Source: a virus. From it: 31,902 nucleotides of DNA. The translations under genes and the position numbers were made by a program. This document shows, one piece after another, positions 2,928 to 19,000 of the stretch. How positions within the stretch are numbered: position 1 is the first letter of the stretch; each line of letters begins with the position of its first letter. Under the pieces are notes generated by a model. That model saw only the letters and a list, made by a program, of their open reading frames with translations. It had not been told where the DNA came from and made no database searches. The DNA is taken from positions 1-31,902 of IMG/VR virus record IMGVR_UViG_3300008627_000034; one strand, given 5' to 3'.

Positions 2928-4322
2928 TTATTCGAATCCTTCTATCTTTTTATCTGAAGGTTTTTCTTTTTCATCAGTTTTATATGCTGCGTAAACATTC
3001 GCCGCGGTTTGTCTTAAAAAATCCTCTGAACTTTTCATTTTCTTTGTAGCTTCTGAACCCATTTTTGAAGTTGGACGATGTATATCAATTAATCCTATTG
3101 TAGTATTCATACTTACAGGATAGGTTATACCATCAACACCAAATCTATTTTTTATAATATGACACCGAGCCGTATTAGCTGCTTTATCCTCAATTTTTCT
3201 CGATATACTTAAAACAAAATCTGCTGTCATAACTTTAGTATAACTCTCCGCGACTTTTTCTGCCCCAATAACATCTTCCTCTAATGATGAACGATTTGCT
3301 TGTGATGCTGTCCATATAGGAACTTCCATTTCACCAGCCAATCCTCGTAGGTCTTCATAAATGTTTCCTAACTGAAGTCTTAATTCTTTTGAATGTCCCA
3401 CATCTCTCATAATATCAGCGTAATCTACAATAACTAAATTAGGTTTAAATCCACTAATCTCACATTGTTTCAAATGTGCATTTAAAGTTTGAACTGTTGC
3501 AGACCTGGTTGGAAAATATTTAATTAATAATTGTCCTTTAACTTGTTGTAAAGATTTTTCTACTTCCTCTTTTCTAAATTTTAAATCTCCTGTAGGTACA
3601 CCTGAAAATATAGTATCATATCGTAATCCAACATATTCTTGGTTTAATTCCAATGTATAATGTACTACTTTTTTTCCAACCTTAATAGCGTTTTGTACTA
3701 TTTTTTGTAAACACCAAGTTTTTCCAATACCTGCTGGTGCTACCAATACTCCTAATTCTCCAGCACCTAATCCACCATCCATTACTTCATCTATAATATC
3801 CCAACCAGTAGAAACAGTTTTTCGAGTAGTTTTAGTCATTCGTTCTTCTAAACCTTTAATATAATCATGACCTAAATCCTTACTCGTACCCGCTTTCATA
3901 GCTTCATCTATTCTTACCTTAATACCATCATAGTCTTGTCTTTCTAACAAATCAACACTATCCATTATAGCGGTTTTTAATGTTTGATTTTTACAGAAAG
4001 TCAACGCATGTTCTTTTATATATTCAAAATCAGTAGCGTTTCTTAATTGATATGATTCTTTCAAATTATCTATAACGGTTTGTTGTAAAAGATCTGAATT
4101 TATTTTTTTAATCTCTATGGATAAGGTTTCCATAGTTGGTGTAGTCTTATATTTTCCAAAATACTCTTTTATATTACGTACTAACCATTTATCCGCATCA
4201 CTATCGAAATACTCTGGTTCTATAATATCATTAATAGTTTGCATGAATTGTTTATCATTAATAAGTAAAATGATAATTTTCTTCTGAAATGAATGTCCGA
4301 AATGTGTTAATGTTTCTGCCAT
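2928..4322 (-). CDS. gp41: Replicative DNA helicase, DnaB/T4 gp41-like
   Basis: Hexameric 5'-3' helicase that unwinds DNA at the phage replication fork and would partner a primase encoded elsewhere. The 464-aa length equals a typical gp41/DnaB. The N-terminal 150 residues are helical, like the DnaB N-domain. The RecA-like motor follows: Walker A APAGIGKT (about 195-202), Walker B NLVIVDYAD (295-303), the sensor TASQANR (338-344) and the arginine-finger-like KNRFG (391-395). The C-terminus (about 425-464) is charged and probably flexible. The ATG at 4322 lies just after the TAA of a 30-codon ORF, so translation may be coupled. It is part of the replication block from the ssDNA-binding protein to nrdJ. 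The family assignment is firm. Confidence 0.92.
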   Translation of the reverse strand: MAETLTHFGHSFQKKIIILLINDKQFMQTINDIIEPEYFDSDADKWLVRNIKEYFGKYKTTPTMETLSIEIKKINSDLLQQTVIDNLKESYQLRNATDFEYIKEHALTFCKNQTLKTAIMDSVDLLERQDYDGIKVRIDEAMKAGTSKDLGHDYIKGLEERMTKTTRKTVSTGWDIIDEVMDGGLGAGELGVLVAPAGIGKTWCLQKIVQNAIKVGKKVVHYTLELNQEYVGLRYDTIFSGVPTGDLKFRKEEVEKSLQQVKGQLLIKYFPTRSATVQTLNAHLKQCEISGFKPNLVIVDYADIMRDVGHSKELRLQLGNIYEDLRGLAGEMEVPIWTASQANRSSLEEDVIGAEKVAESYTKVMTADFVLSISRKIEDKAANTARCHIIKNRFGVDGITYPVSMNTTIGLIDIHRPTSKMGSEATKKMKSSEDFLRQTAANVYAAYKTDEKEKPSDKKIEGFE

Positions 4323-13101: not shown

Positions 13102-13602
13102 TTAATTTACCTTTGTAATCTTTTCATACCAAGGACTAAACCATTCCAATACATCTCCCTGACTTCCATATACTTTTAATAAATCTCTTTTCTTATATAA
13201 TATATCCTCAGATAACCTTTCTTTACCCTTATCAAATTGCCATAATAATTCTGGTCGTAAATGGTTTAATATATCGTGTAAAGCTCTATGTCTTGGATGT
13301 CCGTATTCACCTTGTTTATTATGTGTTACTATTTTTTTATAATCTCTTTCTCTCAATACTCTTAATAATTCATAGATAAGTTTTTCTCTATGGTAATCCT
13401 CTCCACCCTTATATCCTGTCCAATGTTCGTAATCCTCTATACCTATATATTTCATAGACTCTCTAAATTCTTCTCGTCTGACTTCATTATGATACTCATC
13501 TATTACCACTACCTTATACTCGTTGGGATGTGATAATAATTCAGCTCCACCAAATAGTGCTTCATCATCAGGGTGTGATACAATCATTATCTTGTCAATC
13601 AC
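13102..13602 (-). CDS. PIG-L/LmbE-family N-acetylglucosamine-type deacetylase
   Basis: Zinc enzymes of this family remove the N-acetyl group from GlcNAc-containing substrates. Seen: the metal/catalytic signature IVSHPDDEALFGG at the N-terminus (His, Asp, Asp), the second metal site EYGHPRHRALHDIL, and KKIVTHNKQ between them. The length (166 aa) is on the short side for the family (about 180-230 aa), with the C-terminal lobe reduced. The start is a GTG at 13602 overlapping the nagB stop by 8 nt; it gives MIDKIMIVSHPDDE, the usual family opening. An ATG five codons later is the alternative. The gene follows nagB, so the two probably act on related amino sugars. The acceptor (free sugar, glycolipid, cell-wall fragment or nucleotide sugar) is unknown. 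Confidence 0.88.
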   Translation of the reverse strand: MIDKIMIVSHPDDEALFGGAELLSHPNEYKVVVIDEYHNEVRREEFRESMKYIGIEDYEHWTGYKGGEDYHREKLIYELLRVLRERDYKKIVTHNKQGEYGHPRHRALHDILNHLRPELLWQFDKGKERLSEDILYKKRDLLKVYGSQGDVLEWFSPWYEKITKVN

Positions 13603-14266
13603 AATAAAATACCGTGCAATTTGGATGTTCTTGTAAAAATGAGGCTGGTACTTCAGGAGTTATATCTCCATTAATTGCCCTATCTAAAATTTCTTTCTTA
13701 TGACTACCTTGTGCTACTAAATAAATTCTTTTAGCTTTCAGTATGGTTTCTATTCCCATTGTTATTGCTTGTGTAGGAACTTCATCTATAGAATCAAAAA
13801 ATCTACTATTATCCTTAATTGTATTCTCTGTTAAATCAACCACATGAGTTTTTGATTCTCTTCGCGTTCCTGGTTCATTAAATGCAATATGACCATTAGT
13901 TCCAATACCTAATATCTGAATATCTATACCACCATAGGCTTCTATTAAATCATCATATAAATCTACTCCATTTAAACTTGGAAAAAATCGTTTTTTAAAT
14001 GTTAAATTACCAAATAGGTGTTCATACATAAAATGATTGTATGATTGTGGATGCCAACCATTCAATCCAACATATTCATCAAGATTAAAAGTAACCGTTT
14101 CAGAAAAGTTTGTATTTCTCATCTTTGATAATTCTTTATAGATTCCAATAGGTGTTGAACCTGTAGCTAATCCTAAAACTGGATTTTGATGTCTTTTTAC
14201 CAAATCTCGTATATTTGATGCTATTAAATGACAAACTTTTTGATATGGGTTATTTTTAATCCTCAT
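13595..14266 (-). CDS. nagB: Glucosamine-6-phosphate deaminase
   Basis: NagB converts glucosamine-6-phosphate to fructose-6-phosphate and ammonia, reversibly. Seen: the phosphate loop LGLATGSTPIGIYKEL, the catalytic TFNLDEYVGL (Asp as in E. coli D72), the YNHFMYEHLF helix, GIGTNGHIAFNEPGTR (His and Glu equal to E. coli H143 and E148; the D141 place is Asn, as in Bacillus-type NagB), and the late LVAQGSHKKEIL. The length of 223 aa is close to the shorter Gram-positive type (about 240 aa), and the allosteric C-terminal part of the E. coli enzyme is absent. The ATG overlaps the ThyX stop by 11 nt and the stop overlaps the PIG-L start, so it is embedded in a coupled operon. A nagB in a phage is unusual. 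Confidence 0.93.
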   Translation of the reverse strand: MRIKNNPYQKVCHLIASNIRDLVKRHQNPVLGLATGSTPIGIYKELSKMRNTNFSETVTFNLDEYVGLNGWHPQSYNHFMYEHLFGNLTFKKRFFPSLNGVDLYDDLIEAYGGIDIQILGIGTNGHIAFNEPGTRRESKTHVVDLTENTIKDNSRFFDSIDEVPTQAITMGIETILKAKRIYLVAQGSHKKEILDRAINGDITPEVPASFLQEHPNCTVFYCD

Positions 14267-14978
14267 TCAAATAAACTTCACTCCACAATTTAGTGGTTTC
14301 TGGAAAAATTTCCAACATAATTTCTTTTAATACTTTTGCGTATTGTTGTATTTCCCATTGAGCGGTAGGTTCATCTCTAAGTTCTATAAAGTTCATAATA
14401 GCTTGAAATGATGCCGTCCAATAAACTTCTGTATATTGTGATAATGGTAATACAATTCTTGCTTGTTCTTTAGCCATACCAGCATTTACCATTGATTCAT
14501 ATGCCATTTCAACATTATTCATAAATGTTTTATAAATCATACTCATTCGTTTTTGTTGTAAATCATCTAACTCACCTTCAGAAGCTTGTTTATTATCTTC
14601 TGATTGTTTTCTCCAAACTTCTGGATAATAATACTCTTTTACTGGAACATACCGACCACTAATTTCGTTCCATGGTGTATCTTTAGTTGGATAGTTTGAA
14701 GTTGCTTCAATTCCCACCAAATGGCGAAATAATTGTCTCATCACAAATTCAGGAGCTTTAATATTAAGTTGTGTTTGTAAATGCCTAAATGGACTAAAAT
14801 GTTTATTTTTTACTAAATATCTAACTAATTTCGCATCCTTTTCGTCCCACACTTCCTTCCTTTTACCAAACGATACTCGAGCAGAATTAACTACTGTTAA
14901 ATCATTTCCCATAACACCTTCTACTCTAATATGCCCCTTATCTAATATTTTTATTTCTTTACCTTTATAACTTTCCAT
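14256..14978 (-). CDS. thyX: Flavin-dependent thymidylate synthase, ThyX
   Basis: Makes dTMP from dUMP using FAD, NADPH and methylenetetrahydrofolate, complementing the reductase NrdJ. Seen: NDLTVVNSARVSFGKR near the N-terminus (nucleotide-binding part), FSPFRHLQTQLNIKAPEFV, then the ThyX signature region MRQLFRHLVGIEATSNYPTK followed by DTPWNEISGRY, where the classical RHRxxSxNExSxRY is stretched by an insertion. The late LPLSQYTEVYWTASFQAIMN and FIELR follow the family. The length (240 aa) is normal. Its start overlaps the homing endonuclease by 28 nt. It has an extra N-terminal MESYKGKE compared with the thyX remnant upstream, which suggests the two copies have different histories. It should be functional. 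Confidence 0.93.
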   Translation of the reverse strand: MESYKGKEIKILDKGHIRVEGVMGNDLTVVNSARVSFGKRKEVWDEKDAKLVRYLVKNKHFSPFRHLQTQLNIKAPEFVMRQLFRHLVGIEATSNYPTKDTPWNEISGRYVPVKEYYYPEVWRKQSEDNKQASEGELDDLQQKRMSMIYKTFMNNVEMAYESMVNAGMAKEQARIVLPLSQYTEVYWTASFQAIMNFIELRDEPTAQWEIQQYAKVLKEIMLEIFPETTKLWSEVYLNED

Positions 14979-15685
14979 TGTTTATATTCTCCATGTTTTA
15001 ATAGTGGTTCTGACCAAACTTTCCCTTTTAAGTATTCACAGATTGACTTTCTACCATAAAATTCTTTAACTACACCTACGGGTGATGTTAAAATAAAAGT
15101 TCTTGTCGTTGATTTTATTTTTTTTTCTATTTGTGTTTTTGTTTGTTTTTTTCCACTAACTCGCAGTGAAAATTTTTCTTTAAATCCAGTAGAATTCCAC
15201 ATCTGTTTAGATTTTTCTCCAATTTTTTTCTTAGTTTCGTCAGTATGTGAATGTCCCCATTTTTTATACTTGCTTCTGTCGGTCTTCTTCCAATATTTTT
15301 GTACAGATTCTCTAATTTTCTGTTTATGTTCTTCTGTTTTTTTACGTCCTGTGTGAGCTTTACTATAGTTTTTTCGTATTTGTTCTTTATGTGGATTATT
15401 GGTAAATAAATCTCCACCAGTTCCCCCTATATGAATATTATATCTTGGATTTAATTTTTCTATCCACTTAATTTCAGCCTTATCTACTTCATCCTTTGTG
15501 TTACATTCTTCTAAAATTACACAATCAAAATTTTTTCTACCATATTTTTTGATTGCTTGAGTTAATATTTTCCCACTACCTATATAACGCATACCACTAA
15601 CAGTTCTCATATTATTAGTATTTTTATGCTGACCTATATACAACTTACCATTTATTTTATTTATAGTTTTATACACTACAAACAT
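14951..15685 (-). CDS. GIY-YIG homing endonuclease (Seg-like)
   Basis: A free-standing selfish nuclease. The N-terminal GIY-YIG domain shows VVYKTINKINGKLYIGQH, RYIGSGKILTQAIKKYG, FDCVILEECNT with a following KWIEKLNPRYNI and the terminal GGTGGD. The DNA-binding half has NUMOD3-like repeats (SKAHTGRKKTEEHKQKI; GHSHTDETKKKIGEKS) and a C-terminal NUMOD1-like helix (FYGRKSICEYLKGKV). The length of 244 aa matches T4 Seg proteins. It has its own AGGAGA ribosome site 7 nt before the ATG and its own ATATTTAT element in the 54-bp leader, as expected of an inserted cassette. It lies between a broken 5' end of one thyX and a full thyX, so thyX is its likely target. Confidence 0.92.
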   Translation of the reverse strand: MFVVYKTINKINGKLYIGQHKNTNNMRTVSGMRYIGSGKILTQAIKKYGRKNFDCVILEECNTKDEVDKAEIKWIEKLNPRYNIHIGGTGGDLFTNNPHKEQIRKNYSKAHTGRKKTEEHKQKIRESVQKYWKKTDRSKYKKWGHSHTDETKKKIGEKSKQMWNSTGFKEKFSLRVSGKKQTKTQIEKKIKSTTRTFILTSPVGVVKEFYGRKSICEYLKGKVWSEPLLKHGEYKQWKVIKVKK

Positions 15686-15708
15686 ACAACTTCTCCTATA
15701 TTTATCTA

Positions 15709-15721
15709 ATAATAAATATCA
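15709..15721 (-). promoter_or_regulatory. Candidate promoter element (GATATTTATTA) upstream of the homing endonuclease
   Basis: On the minus strand the leader reads GTGATATTTATTATTA about 30 nt before the endonuclease ATG, followed by ATAGGAGA. The same core occurs before the tail genes. Its presence in the short insert leader supports a promoter carried by the mobile cassette; this is inferred from recurrence. Confidence 0.35.
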
Positions 15722-15739
15722 CAAAAGTAAACTTTACAT

Positions 15740-15862
15740 TTAACTATCTACAATATCTTTTCGTTGTCCAAATGAAACACGAGCAGCATTTACTGGTGTT
15801 AAATCATCACCAAGTGAATCTACAACTTCAATATAACCTTTGTCTAAAACCTTTATTTTCAT
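15740..15862 (-). pseudogene. thyX: 5' remnant of a second thyX (40 codons)
   Basis: The frame opens with an ATG overlapping the stop of the 61-aa gene (ATGA) and reads [20 protein letters not shown] then [20 protein letters not shown] before a TAA. Aligned by eye to the intact ThyX from its residue 8, 23 of about 39 positions are identical, including LDKG, DLT and ARVSFG. The homology ends right after RVSFG-x-RK, and the next feature is the homing-endonuclease leader. It is therefore the beginning of the native thyX, whose remainder has been lost or replaced by the endonuclease plus another thyX. It could still be translated as a short peptide because the start and coupling are intact, but it lacks every catalytic residue. 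Confidence 0.85.
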
Positions 15863-16044
15863 TTAACCTCAACTAAATCATTCGGCATCACAAACCATAT
15901 TTTACCAACTTGATCTTTAACGCGAATTTTTTTATTTGATTCTTTTATAACATTTTCTTGGGCAAAAACTACCTCATCTTTATATAGTGTTCCATTTATT
16001 GAAAATACATTTTTTTTTGCTTTATATTTAAAACCTTTATCCAT
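15859..16044 (-). CDS. Hypothetical protein, 61 aa
   Basis: Not recognised. A small, probably beta-rich protein with [20 protein letters not shown] and [15 protein letters not shown]; the pattern could form a small SH3-like barrel, but that is a guess. It lies 4 bp after the stop of the 1292-aa hub-like gene and its own stop overlaps the ATG of the thyX remnant. It therefore links the tail module to the original thyX, showing what the junction looked like before the homing-endonuclease event. No cysteines, signal peptide or membrane span. Confidence 0.65.
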
Positions 16045-16048
16045 TATA

Positions 16049-19000
16049 CTAATCTACAGGGTTTTTTATTAAAAGTTCTGAATTCATTACCCACATCGTT
16101 AGTACATTATAAGGCATAAAACTGTCAAACCACGCATCATATTTTGGATCTACATATTTAACCTCTTTAACTAAAGCTTCCAATTCACCCAATTGTTTCT
16201 TTGCACCTGCTAATCCTTTCCCTTTTGTTAAACCTAACTCATTTTCTAATAAATACATCCATGGTGCGTATTGACCATCATCTACCGCGGATTTCCATGC
16301 TATCCAAGTAAAACCTTCTGGTGGTTTATGTCCATTACCATCCTCAGCTTTTTTACCGAACATAGTATTATACCAATTCCAAGTGCTTGATACAGATAGT
16401 ATCTCAGCCGGATCCGTAGAAAAATACAGGTTGTATGTATCATAGTCTGATTGATTGTTCTTTATTATTTTAGGCAAAGTAGTTCTTAGTGTTAATCCAT
16501 CTCTCTTTAAGTCTTCATGTCTGTTATCTTCAAACCAAGTATCCGCTACAACTCTATTATAGAAAAACTTTTTAGCATCTTTTTGTTCATTCAATTGTAC
16601 ACCTTCCCCCGCCATCCAATTTCCAACATACATTAACTGCATTTGGAAATAAAAAAGTATATGCATAGGATTTGAAAACTCAAATTTTTCAACTTCTTTT
16701 TTACTAGGATTCCAAATTTTCTTTGCAGGAATTATCATTTTATTCTTAGGATCTGCAAAATGTTCAAAAACTTTAGAAAAATCAGCCAAAACTGCATTAC
16801 CACCCTTGACAGAACTATAATCCACAAATCGCATAAGATTCTTGAGCTCACCAAAAATTGTATCCACTGCACCAGCTCCCGTATCCATATTATAATTAAT
16901 TCCTGCTATATGAGAATACGCGGCGGAAACAAAATCAGCCCTCATATTAAAAAAATTAAGATATTTATGTATTCCTTCAGTCATTGGTAATAAAGTTGGA
17001 GTAATTGTATATGGATATTGACTTTCTGGTTTTAATACTTTTCTTTTAGGAAACGCTTTTGGATTCATTCTCGGCATTCCCTTTATAGTAGTACTCCAAG
17101 TATCTGGAGTAAGGTCTTGAGTTATTTCTATCGCTTGATACAAAACTGGATATTCACCATTAGCTTGTTTTTGAAATCCTTTAGGTAAATACTTAGTTAT
17201 AAAAGCATCACCTGGAAAAATACCACCAGTACCATCTATTGTTAGAGATAAATCCATCAATCCATTATATAGAGAAAACCTATTTGGAACTGATTCCATT
17301 GGGTCATAATTTATTCTATATAACATCTCATTTTTAAAGTTTACAGGAAGATTTTTCATCCTTCCAGTTATCGCGTTATATTTATTCTCCGCCCATGCGG
17401 CATCTGTAGTATTTAAATCTACTTCTAATCTATATACAGAACCAGACGAAGCTGGTAATGGTATAATACTCGTAGCGGCAGGTGAAGTAGTTGAATCATA
17501 TTTTGAACTATTTAGTAAAGATTTATTAAAAGAATCTAAAAACATATTTTGTGTATTTTCAAATTTAATCTCTTCAGTTTCATTAACACCATCCCCCGCA
17601 TACTTACCAAATGCAGTACTTTTTTCTAATATTGGTACTACATTCTGATTCTTTTTATTAAGATTCATTATTCTCTGATAATTCTCAAATCCATCAAGTT
17701 TAAGAAATTTAGTTAATTTCTGTGCTTCTAATCCACCTCTTGATGGGTCATATTCACTTATTTTATTTCCAGGTTGATTTCCCCCATATAACGCTGTAAC
17801 TGCCATTGAATTTGGTATAGATACTTTTAAATCTTGATTTTTAACCATAGACCCTGGTTCAAACGCAGGAAACTCATATACTTTATTCAAATTACCCTTT
17901 TCTTCATTTACAGATTGACGGTCTTGTTTGTTAAACATAGATGGATCTTGAACTAAATTTTTATCTATAATTCCTAATCTATTTGGATGAAAAATATCAG
18001 ATGCAACTTCGAATGAATTTGAATTTCCAAAATTATCAGTCATAAGTTTAAAAATATTATCTAAACCTTCACGTAAATTACTAACTCCTGCAAAAGCTCC
18101 CTGTAATGCTTTTGCGTTAAAAAATAAATTTCTTATATATCCACTTTCTTTATCAGTATTAGCTGAAGCTTCAACCTCTACCTTCGCTATACGAGACTCA
18201 CTATTTCCTTCCTCAGTTGTACCTGAATTAATCTTAGAATCAATATAACGACCTAAATTAGCAAACATATTAAATCTTAATTCATTACCTACATCAGTAA
18301 CTTCCAAAGGGTCACACAATCGTAATCCAGGAATTTTATCTGGAATTATTACAGAAGTCACATCTGTAGTTAACAAACTATCGGGCATTAAAAATTTACT
18401 ACTTTCAAACTCACCTTTATCTGAAATACGACTTGTTTCATCTAATTTAGGCTCTACTGAATGAAAATATACTGTTAAACTATCTGTATCTCCTACATAA
18501 CCTGTAAACCTTGTCAATATATTATCCTCAAACCAACCCCATCTTACCCAAACTTGTGGTTCTGCGTCTACATAATCTAAAAAAGTTTTATTGTCTGAAA
18601 ACATCAAGGCCATTAAGGAACCTGGAGCTAAATTTTCTTTAGTTTTTTCCCACCAAGTTTCTTCACTTTTTTCTCTCGTTACTTTACCTTCCTCTGATAC
18701 TTCAGTTGCTACACCTCTTACTTGTGAAGAAAATTTTTGATAATTAGCGGCTTTAAAATTATTTTTGAAAAAACCATATGTTCCAGTTGAATATTTCCAA
18801 TCCATCGCTGAAAAGATTTGGATAACATTATTTTCACTATATTCCTCAAAAACTGTTGGATAAATCATATGGTCAAGTTTCAACTTACCACTATTTTGTT
18901 CTTTCCATTCCGCTACATCACCCTCTTTATCATACATAGTATAACTTGGTTTATCTTCTGTAGATTGTTGTCCCACTAAGGAATAAAATAATGTTTCTGG

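Follow-up and report, generated by a model that had tools for sequence, protein, structure and literature searches.

How does a phage gene come to be preceded by a second copy of its own front end, with an endonuclease gene lodged between the two? This question is raised by the thyX locus of a virus contig of 31,902 bases, which was analysed over its full length (the window) and whose matches to tail sheath, baseplate hub, single-strand-binding and DnaB-like helicase families point to a contractile-tailed, T4-like phage as its source. On the minus strand the genes follow each other in the order 1292-aa ORF, 61-aa ORF (16044-15859), 40-codon ORF (15862-15740), homing endonuclease gene (HEG; here HEG1, 244 aa, 15685-14951), complete thyX (14978-14256), glucosamine-6-phosphate isomerase-like gene (13595-14266, assigned with Pfam) and PIG-L gene. 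The initial annotation had read the 40-codon ORF as the first codons of a thyX still translationally coupled to the 61-aa gene, followed by a GIY-YIG endonuclease and a full ThyX, and we were able to confirm this tandem: the short ORF, hereafter the stub, lies on the minus strand and is joined to the 61-aa gene by a 4-bp ATGA overlap. The different N-terminal extension ascribed to the complete ThyX has another origin: the thyX start codon and the MESYKGKE that it opens sit inside the end of HEG1 (the two genes overlap by 28 bp), MESYKGKE being the last HEG codons read in another frame, with a GGAG upstream of the thyX ATG. Directly after thyX, the isomerase-like and PIG-L deacetylase-like genes (13102-14266) overlap each other and are kept in two related loci, L081 and L001; perhaps the pair serves sugar or DNA-modification functions.

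Both proteins passed their family models, with the downstream gene product scoring 144.5 bits against NCBIfam TIGR02170 for ThyX (cut-off 87.9) and HEG1 scoring 32.2 against Pfam GIY-YIG (cut-off 22.6). On the NCBIfam model for group I intron endonucleases (TIGR01453, cut-off 56.05) HEG1 reached 61.7, whilst its relatives from loci L064 and L010, described below, reached 67.2 and 53.0. A profile built from the four closely grouped HEGs matched I-TevI (1ln0, E 2.4e-4), and E71 of HEG1 aligned to the catalytic glutamate of I-TevI. HEG1 also matched phage homing endonuclease PHROGs and, weakly, the SegE GIY-YIG model (23.3 bits, below the cut-off of 25), and a search of the HEG for zinc-finger and intein families returned none at E<=0.1. 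When compared to the solved ThyX structure 6j61, the ThyX of the window (14256-14978) is longer by about 12 residues in the stretch from the RQxxRH to the NEISGRY motif; this insertion is near-universal in the aligned relatives, with locus L180 being shorter.

A locus without the HEG was found in L081. Here, an uninterrupted, full-length thyX shares the ATGA overlap with an upstream gene orthologous to the 61-aa gene (62.5% aa identity), as anticipated in the initial annotation, which had called for an allele continuing the remnant as a full gene coupled to the 61-aa gene. The surroundings are those of the window, with matches to the 1292-aa ORF (41% aa), the isomerase (85%) and PIG-L (87%), and with one extra ORF (3020-3967) that is absent from the window at that place. 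Among the loci included in this comparison, the stub matched the 5' end of the L081 thyX over 36 residues with 88.9% amino acid identity (E 2e-17), so that chance does not explain the stub; in DNA the two agree at 82 of 99 bases, and the alignment runs to ...TTTGGACAACGAA before the sequences depart. The stub is at most 88.3% identical to any compared thyX outside the window's own record and its distances to ThyX sequences are unequal, rather than equally large to all of them. We assign its first 33 codons (15764-15862) by alignment to an A-type resident thyX, the groups in our thyX trees being named after a sliding comparison; this stretch may serve as a left homology arm.

The same unit of stub, HEG and thyX recurs in L001, another phage with different upstream neighbours, and the comparison of both loci falls into segments of very different identity. 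In the 180 bp upstream, agreement at 80 of 162 positions amounts to no real homology; it then rises to 82/99 over stub codons 1-33 and to 76/78 over the next segment (15686-15763), which comprises the left junction (~15760-15764), a 7-codon tail reading RKDIVDS, the stop and a 54-bp leader with AGGAG, and which travels with the HEG. High identity continues through the HEG (685/735) and thyX codons 1-104 (302/312), and falls from codon 105 to the end of thyX (318/405) and in the isomerase gene (409/661; 51% in amino acids), with 165/207 at the start of PIG-L. The two stubs are thus less alike than leader, HEG and the shared thyX tract taken together (p 9e-5). Moreover, the 33 stub codons differ by 14 synonymous and 3 nonsynonymous changes, whereas the 348 codons of HEG plus thyX tract contain 22 synonymous differences (p 4e-7 for the contrast), whilst the HEG itself shows 18 synonymous differences and 32 that are not. 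Differences that are mostly synonymous, unlike those of the HEG, make the stubs look as if they had diverged as working thyX genes, that is, as two alleles: the stub of L001 shares 98.9% identity (95 bp) with the front of the full thyX of L010, and only 85.3% with the stub of the window. Taken with the identities of the cassette, the 3' part and the flanks, these contrasts indicate that a cassette of HEG and alien thyX 5' end entered two different resident alleles at one point. Hence the single frozen event that the initial annotation envisaged does not hold: the unit is present in a second phage within another resident allele and, as described below, a related HEG with the same anatomy occupies another site. 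A scan of viral_contigs for the left junction found the L001 contig alone.

How much of the downstream thyX arrived with the HEG can be read from its breakpoint. The max-chi2 test for the window and L001 places a break at codon 104, where identity drops from 97.1% to 78.2% (chi2 53.7, p<=0.0005, the lowest value that 2000 shuffles allow). The proposal that repair had brought in a divergent thyX thus stands for codons 1-104 (14667-14978), which match L001 closely, but not for the remainder, and the arrival of a whole downstream thyX with the HEG finds no support in the breakpoints. A further relative of the B-type 5' part is L069, 95.8% identical from codon 17 on; no HEG was found upstream of its thyX, in a contig that ends at codon 104. 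In the 5' tree the window, L001 and L069 form one clade with support of 100, which, together with the identities and the breakpoint, marks this part as an alien replacement. The 3' part (14256-14666) is, judged solely from the drop in identity, probably resident. In the 3' tree the window stands apart from L081 despite its A-type stub, and the AU test on this part did not reject window and L001 as sisters (p 0.09). An L081-like 3' part, suggested by C-terminal residues, received no support from the tree; what is left of this claim is that the 3' part is far from that of L001. The trees comprise 52 hand-picked sequences of 135 distinct thyX (51 in the 3' tree) and were calculated in quick mode. 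Separately, the RKDIVDS tail of the stub (15740-15763) resembles B-type thyX (L031, CGAAAAGATA) in its opening residues; this hints at a first insertion that was possibly not in an A-type allele, or at a B-type participant in an earlier co-conversion.

The second case of this anatomy is the one in which the chimera is best supported. Loci L010 and L015 represent one lineage with a 79-codon stub, a related HEG (HEG2, 54% aa identity to HEG1) and a full thyX, inserted at a site that differs from that of the window and L001. Compared to L003, the L010 stub agrees at 214 of 228 bases (94%) and codons 101-232 of the full gene at 368 of 396 (93%), whereas codons 1-76 of the full gene agree at only 142 of 228 (62%); max-chi2 places the break at codon 91 (chi2 101.3, p<=0.0005). 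The trees conflict accordingly, with the 5' part grouping with L081 (support 98) and the 3' part with the L003 group (99.9), and the AU test rejects both crossed groupings (p 0.0026 and 0.0001). The simplest reading of these sequences is that stub and 3' half were once one L003-like gene, between whose parts the HEG and an alien 5' end were inserted. The L010 stub ends at CAATG, as in alleles reading RQW, whilst the inserted copy reads RQAYKH; of 135 distinct thyX, 12 have this motif, and the two distinct thyX linked to HEG2 (L010 and L064) are among them (p 0.007, a small sample). An assembly artefact is unlikely, as the flanks of the window and L001 are those of different phages and as 2137 of 2138 bases are the same in L010 and L015, which stem from different IMG data sets. 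In L064 (1822-3025) a HEG-thyX pair lies among neighbours that match none of those around the window's unit, and a tblastn search found no stub there; the pair is possibly an ancestral or a relocated cassette. All four HEGs of the close group (window, L001, L010/L015 and L064) overlap a thyX start. In L036, as in L005, an L005-like thyX runs uninterrupted through the HEG2 site; its RQAYKH tract is nearly identical to that of L010 and looks like a tract converted without a HEG, in a contig that begins inside the gene.

To place these loci, 280 sequences were compared, 248 of them with thyX, which gave 156 distinct thyX after removal of loci from the window's own record and collapsing of identical copies; the sample consists mainly of the best 80 of 187-334 relatives in each of three thyX scans and is not a census. 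A HEG of this family is linked to 4 of the 156 distinct thyX, with a stub in 3 of those 4, at 2 sites. Among these 156, of which 133 include the 5' end plus 1.2 kb upstream, tblastn (E<=1e-3) gave a second match to the thyX 5' end only beside a HEG. Fifteen more distant HEG relatives showed no thyX in the DNA examined, and neither did the relatives from one further set or the examined surroundings of 14 distant relatives (27-41% identity) in prokaryote genomes. In cultured phages, a doubled match to the 80-aa thyX 5' end appeared in 0 of 1133 records, and the full ThyX query matched 1527 places in 1526 records, both being tblastn counts that an overly divergent stub would escape.

We consider it probable that the locus harbours a homing element that has no intron or intein and that replaces the 5' end of thyX, leaving the old one behind as a stub. 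Such an element would need neither intron nor intein, for it would carry a spare front end for the gene that it invades. HEG1 would cut a sensitive A-type thyX near codon 33, and a HEG-bearing phage present in that cell would serve as template for repair of the break: on the left, the broken end may pair with the stub, or may first have been joined by chance, whilst the right end would pair with the conserved body of thyX. Leader, HEG1 and the divergent 5' part would thereby be copied in and joined to the resident 3' part at about codon 104, the outcome being a dead stub from the old 5' end, a HEG and a chimeric, presumably active full-length thyX started inside the HEG. The new 5' part would be expected to escape the HEG, its sequence at the cut site being different, and the stub would then let the unit pair with A-type thyX at either end, regardless of which genes lie next to it. 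Whilst anatomy, empty site, breakpoints, the two alleles entered at one point and the second case can be read from the sequences themselves, we infer cutting, resistance, repair route, the stub's role as homology arm and the activity of the chimera by drawing on phage homing (PMC2988022) and WHO elements (PMC7282813). Against this homing explanation, which we still hold to be likely, are the linkage of a HEG to so few of the distinct thyX, the stubless L064, the lack of thyX in the examined DNA of the fifteen more distant HEG relatives, the B-type start of the tail of the window's stub, the placement of its 3' part away from L081 and the max-chi2 breaks, given below, in pairs with no known HEG.

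The strongest competitor, although an unlikely one, is that ordinary free-standing homing of the T4 Seg type has gone wrong, with no special class of element involved: a HEG residing upstream of thyX would cut the thyX of relatives and, in a recipient without upstream homology, illegitimate joining of the left end would leave a useless stub. The HEG-thyX pair of L064, with other genes beside it, would suit this explanation, as would the SegE and PHROG matches of HEG1. However, the two different alleles of the window and L001 share their point of interruption as well as their leader, which fits re-homing through the stub better than repeated illegitimate joining; illegitimate joining may well be the origin of the first stub. 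Very improbable is that thyX is merely a recombination hotspot in which HEG, stub and chimera were assembled by unrelated exchanges. The thyX of these phages does appear to be mosaic or unevenly conserved elsewhere too, with max-chi2 p under 0.01 also in 3 of 5 pairs without known HEG (L036/L005, L003/L081 and L003/L002; chi2 18.7-35.5), but in L010 the stub points to the same L003-like gene as the 3' half, and it is precisely these two that the insert separates; the confinement of second 5' matches to HEG-linked loci likewise speaks against unrelated exchanges. It is harder still to maintain that the 40-codon ORF stands as a conserved gene in its own right or acts as translational leader: whilst it is intact, ATGA-coupled and differs mostly synonymously, the L001 stub is nearest to a full-length thyX and not to the window stub, stub lengths are unequal (40 and 79 codons), and among the loci compared, in searches aimed at thyX generally, no stand-alone stub and hence no such gene in relatives was seen. 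Least likely is that the HEG belongs to a group I intron or intein in a degenerate state, a reading which the TIGR01453 score of HEG1 would favour but which we reject, as no Rfam intron family matched window positions 13500-17000 at E<=5 (one chance microRNA match aside) and no intron RNA matched L001, L010, L087 or L064 at E<=0.5, as such an element would hardly fit alongside a 54-bp leader and a direct overlap of HEG and thyX, and as splicing would duplicate the 5' end.

The statement that free-standing homing genes leave no remnant of the cut gene applies to those of the T4 type, but not to yeast WHO elements or to fungal mitochondrial mobile ORFs (PMC7282813, PMC3630166). These are the closest parallels that we found, and in them the other end of the gene is replaced; among the papers listed in our searches of the open PMC library, we found no phage example of stub, HEG and full gene. 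WHO elements of Torulaspora and Lachancea yeasts, as described by Coughlan et al. (2020, eLife, PMC7282813), likewise place a HEG next to a full-length but chimeric host gene and an old fragment that has been displaced, without splicing and with conflicting trees for the two ends of the host gene; in the proposal of their authors, the displaced fragment acts as second homology arm, whilst resistance comes from the replaced end. Our loci show this anatomy, with the HEG between chimeric gene and displaced fragment, in mirror orientation. According to the same account, WHO elements replace the 3' end of FBA1, encode intein/HO-type (HO/VDE-type) endonucleases with zinc fingers and have been shown to cut allele-specifically, whereas the present element replaces the 5' end of thyX, whose start is embedded in the HEG, and encodes a GIY-YIG enzyme in phages. 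Mobile ORFs with foreign C-termini are described for atp6 of Allomyces and for atp6, atp9, cox2 and nad3 of Glomus (Beaudet et al. 2013, PMC3630166), and for atp6 and cox2 of Phlebia radiata (PMC4019555). In these, a HEG and another gene end are fused in frame and the native end is left behind; those cases are C-terminal and mitochondrial, with a LAGLIDADG enzyme encoded in Glomus atp6, whilst here an N-terminal part is carried. The element thus works like WHO elements and fungal mobile ORFs but is a member of neither, given its nuclease unlike that of WHO, the other gene end and the other host.

Within phages, the Seg genes of T4 as presented in PMC2988022 share with our case a GIY-YIG HEG in a T4-like phage and co-conversion of flanks, but are free-standing and sit between genes. 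With their stubs, the window, L001 and L010/L015 depart from an arrangement between intact genes with the target whole, to which L064 would conform. The same source describes phage genes split by a HEG (mobE in nrdA, mobA in gene 60), which yield two polypeptides that must reassemble; there separate polypeptides result, here a duplicated end. Engineered drives described as home-and-rescue (PMC7968924) also target an essential gene, but are synthetic, CRISPR/Cas9-based and operate in Drosophila.

More tentatively, and with our judgement leaning slightly against it, the loci could represent a natural home-and-rescue family of phages directed at thyX, in which related GIY-YIG genes, each linked to a 5' end immune to its own enzyme, compete by overwriting the alleles of their rivals. 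As part of this reading, HEG2 would have installed an A-type 5' end in L010, and HEG1 would have interrupted nearly the same 5' end in L001; the 5' part carried by HEG1 reads RQLFRH at the HEG2 site, and hence differs there. If true, such a family predicts an order of dominance, with HEG1 over HEG2, and would help to explain the strong mosaicism of the thyX 5' end in these phages. A mirror-image system in phages, acting on the 5' end with an unrelated nuclease, would mean that the strategy of cutting a gene and bringing its replacement end arose more than once, and that it is not peculiar to yeasts or mitochondria. The thyX unit would offer a small system in which natural analogues of rescue-type gene drives can be tested, and may be a cause of chimeric evolution in a phage gene of nucleotide metabolism.
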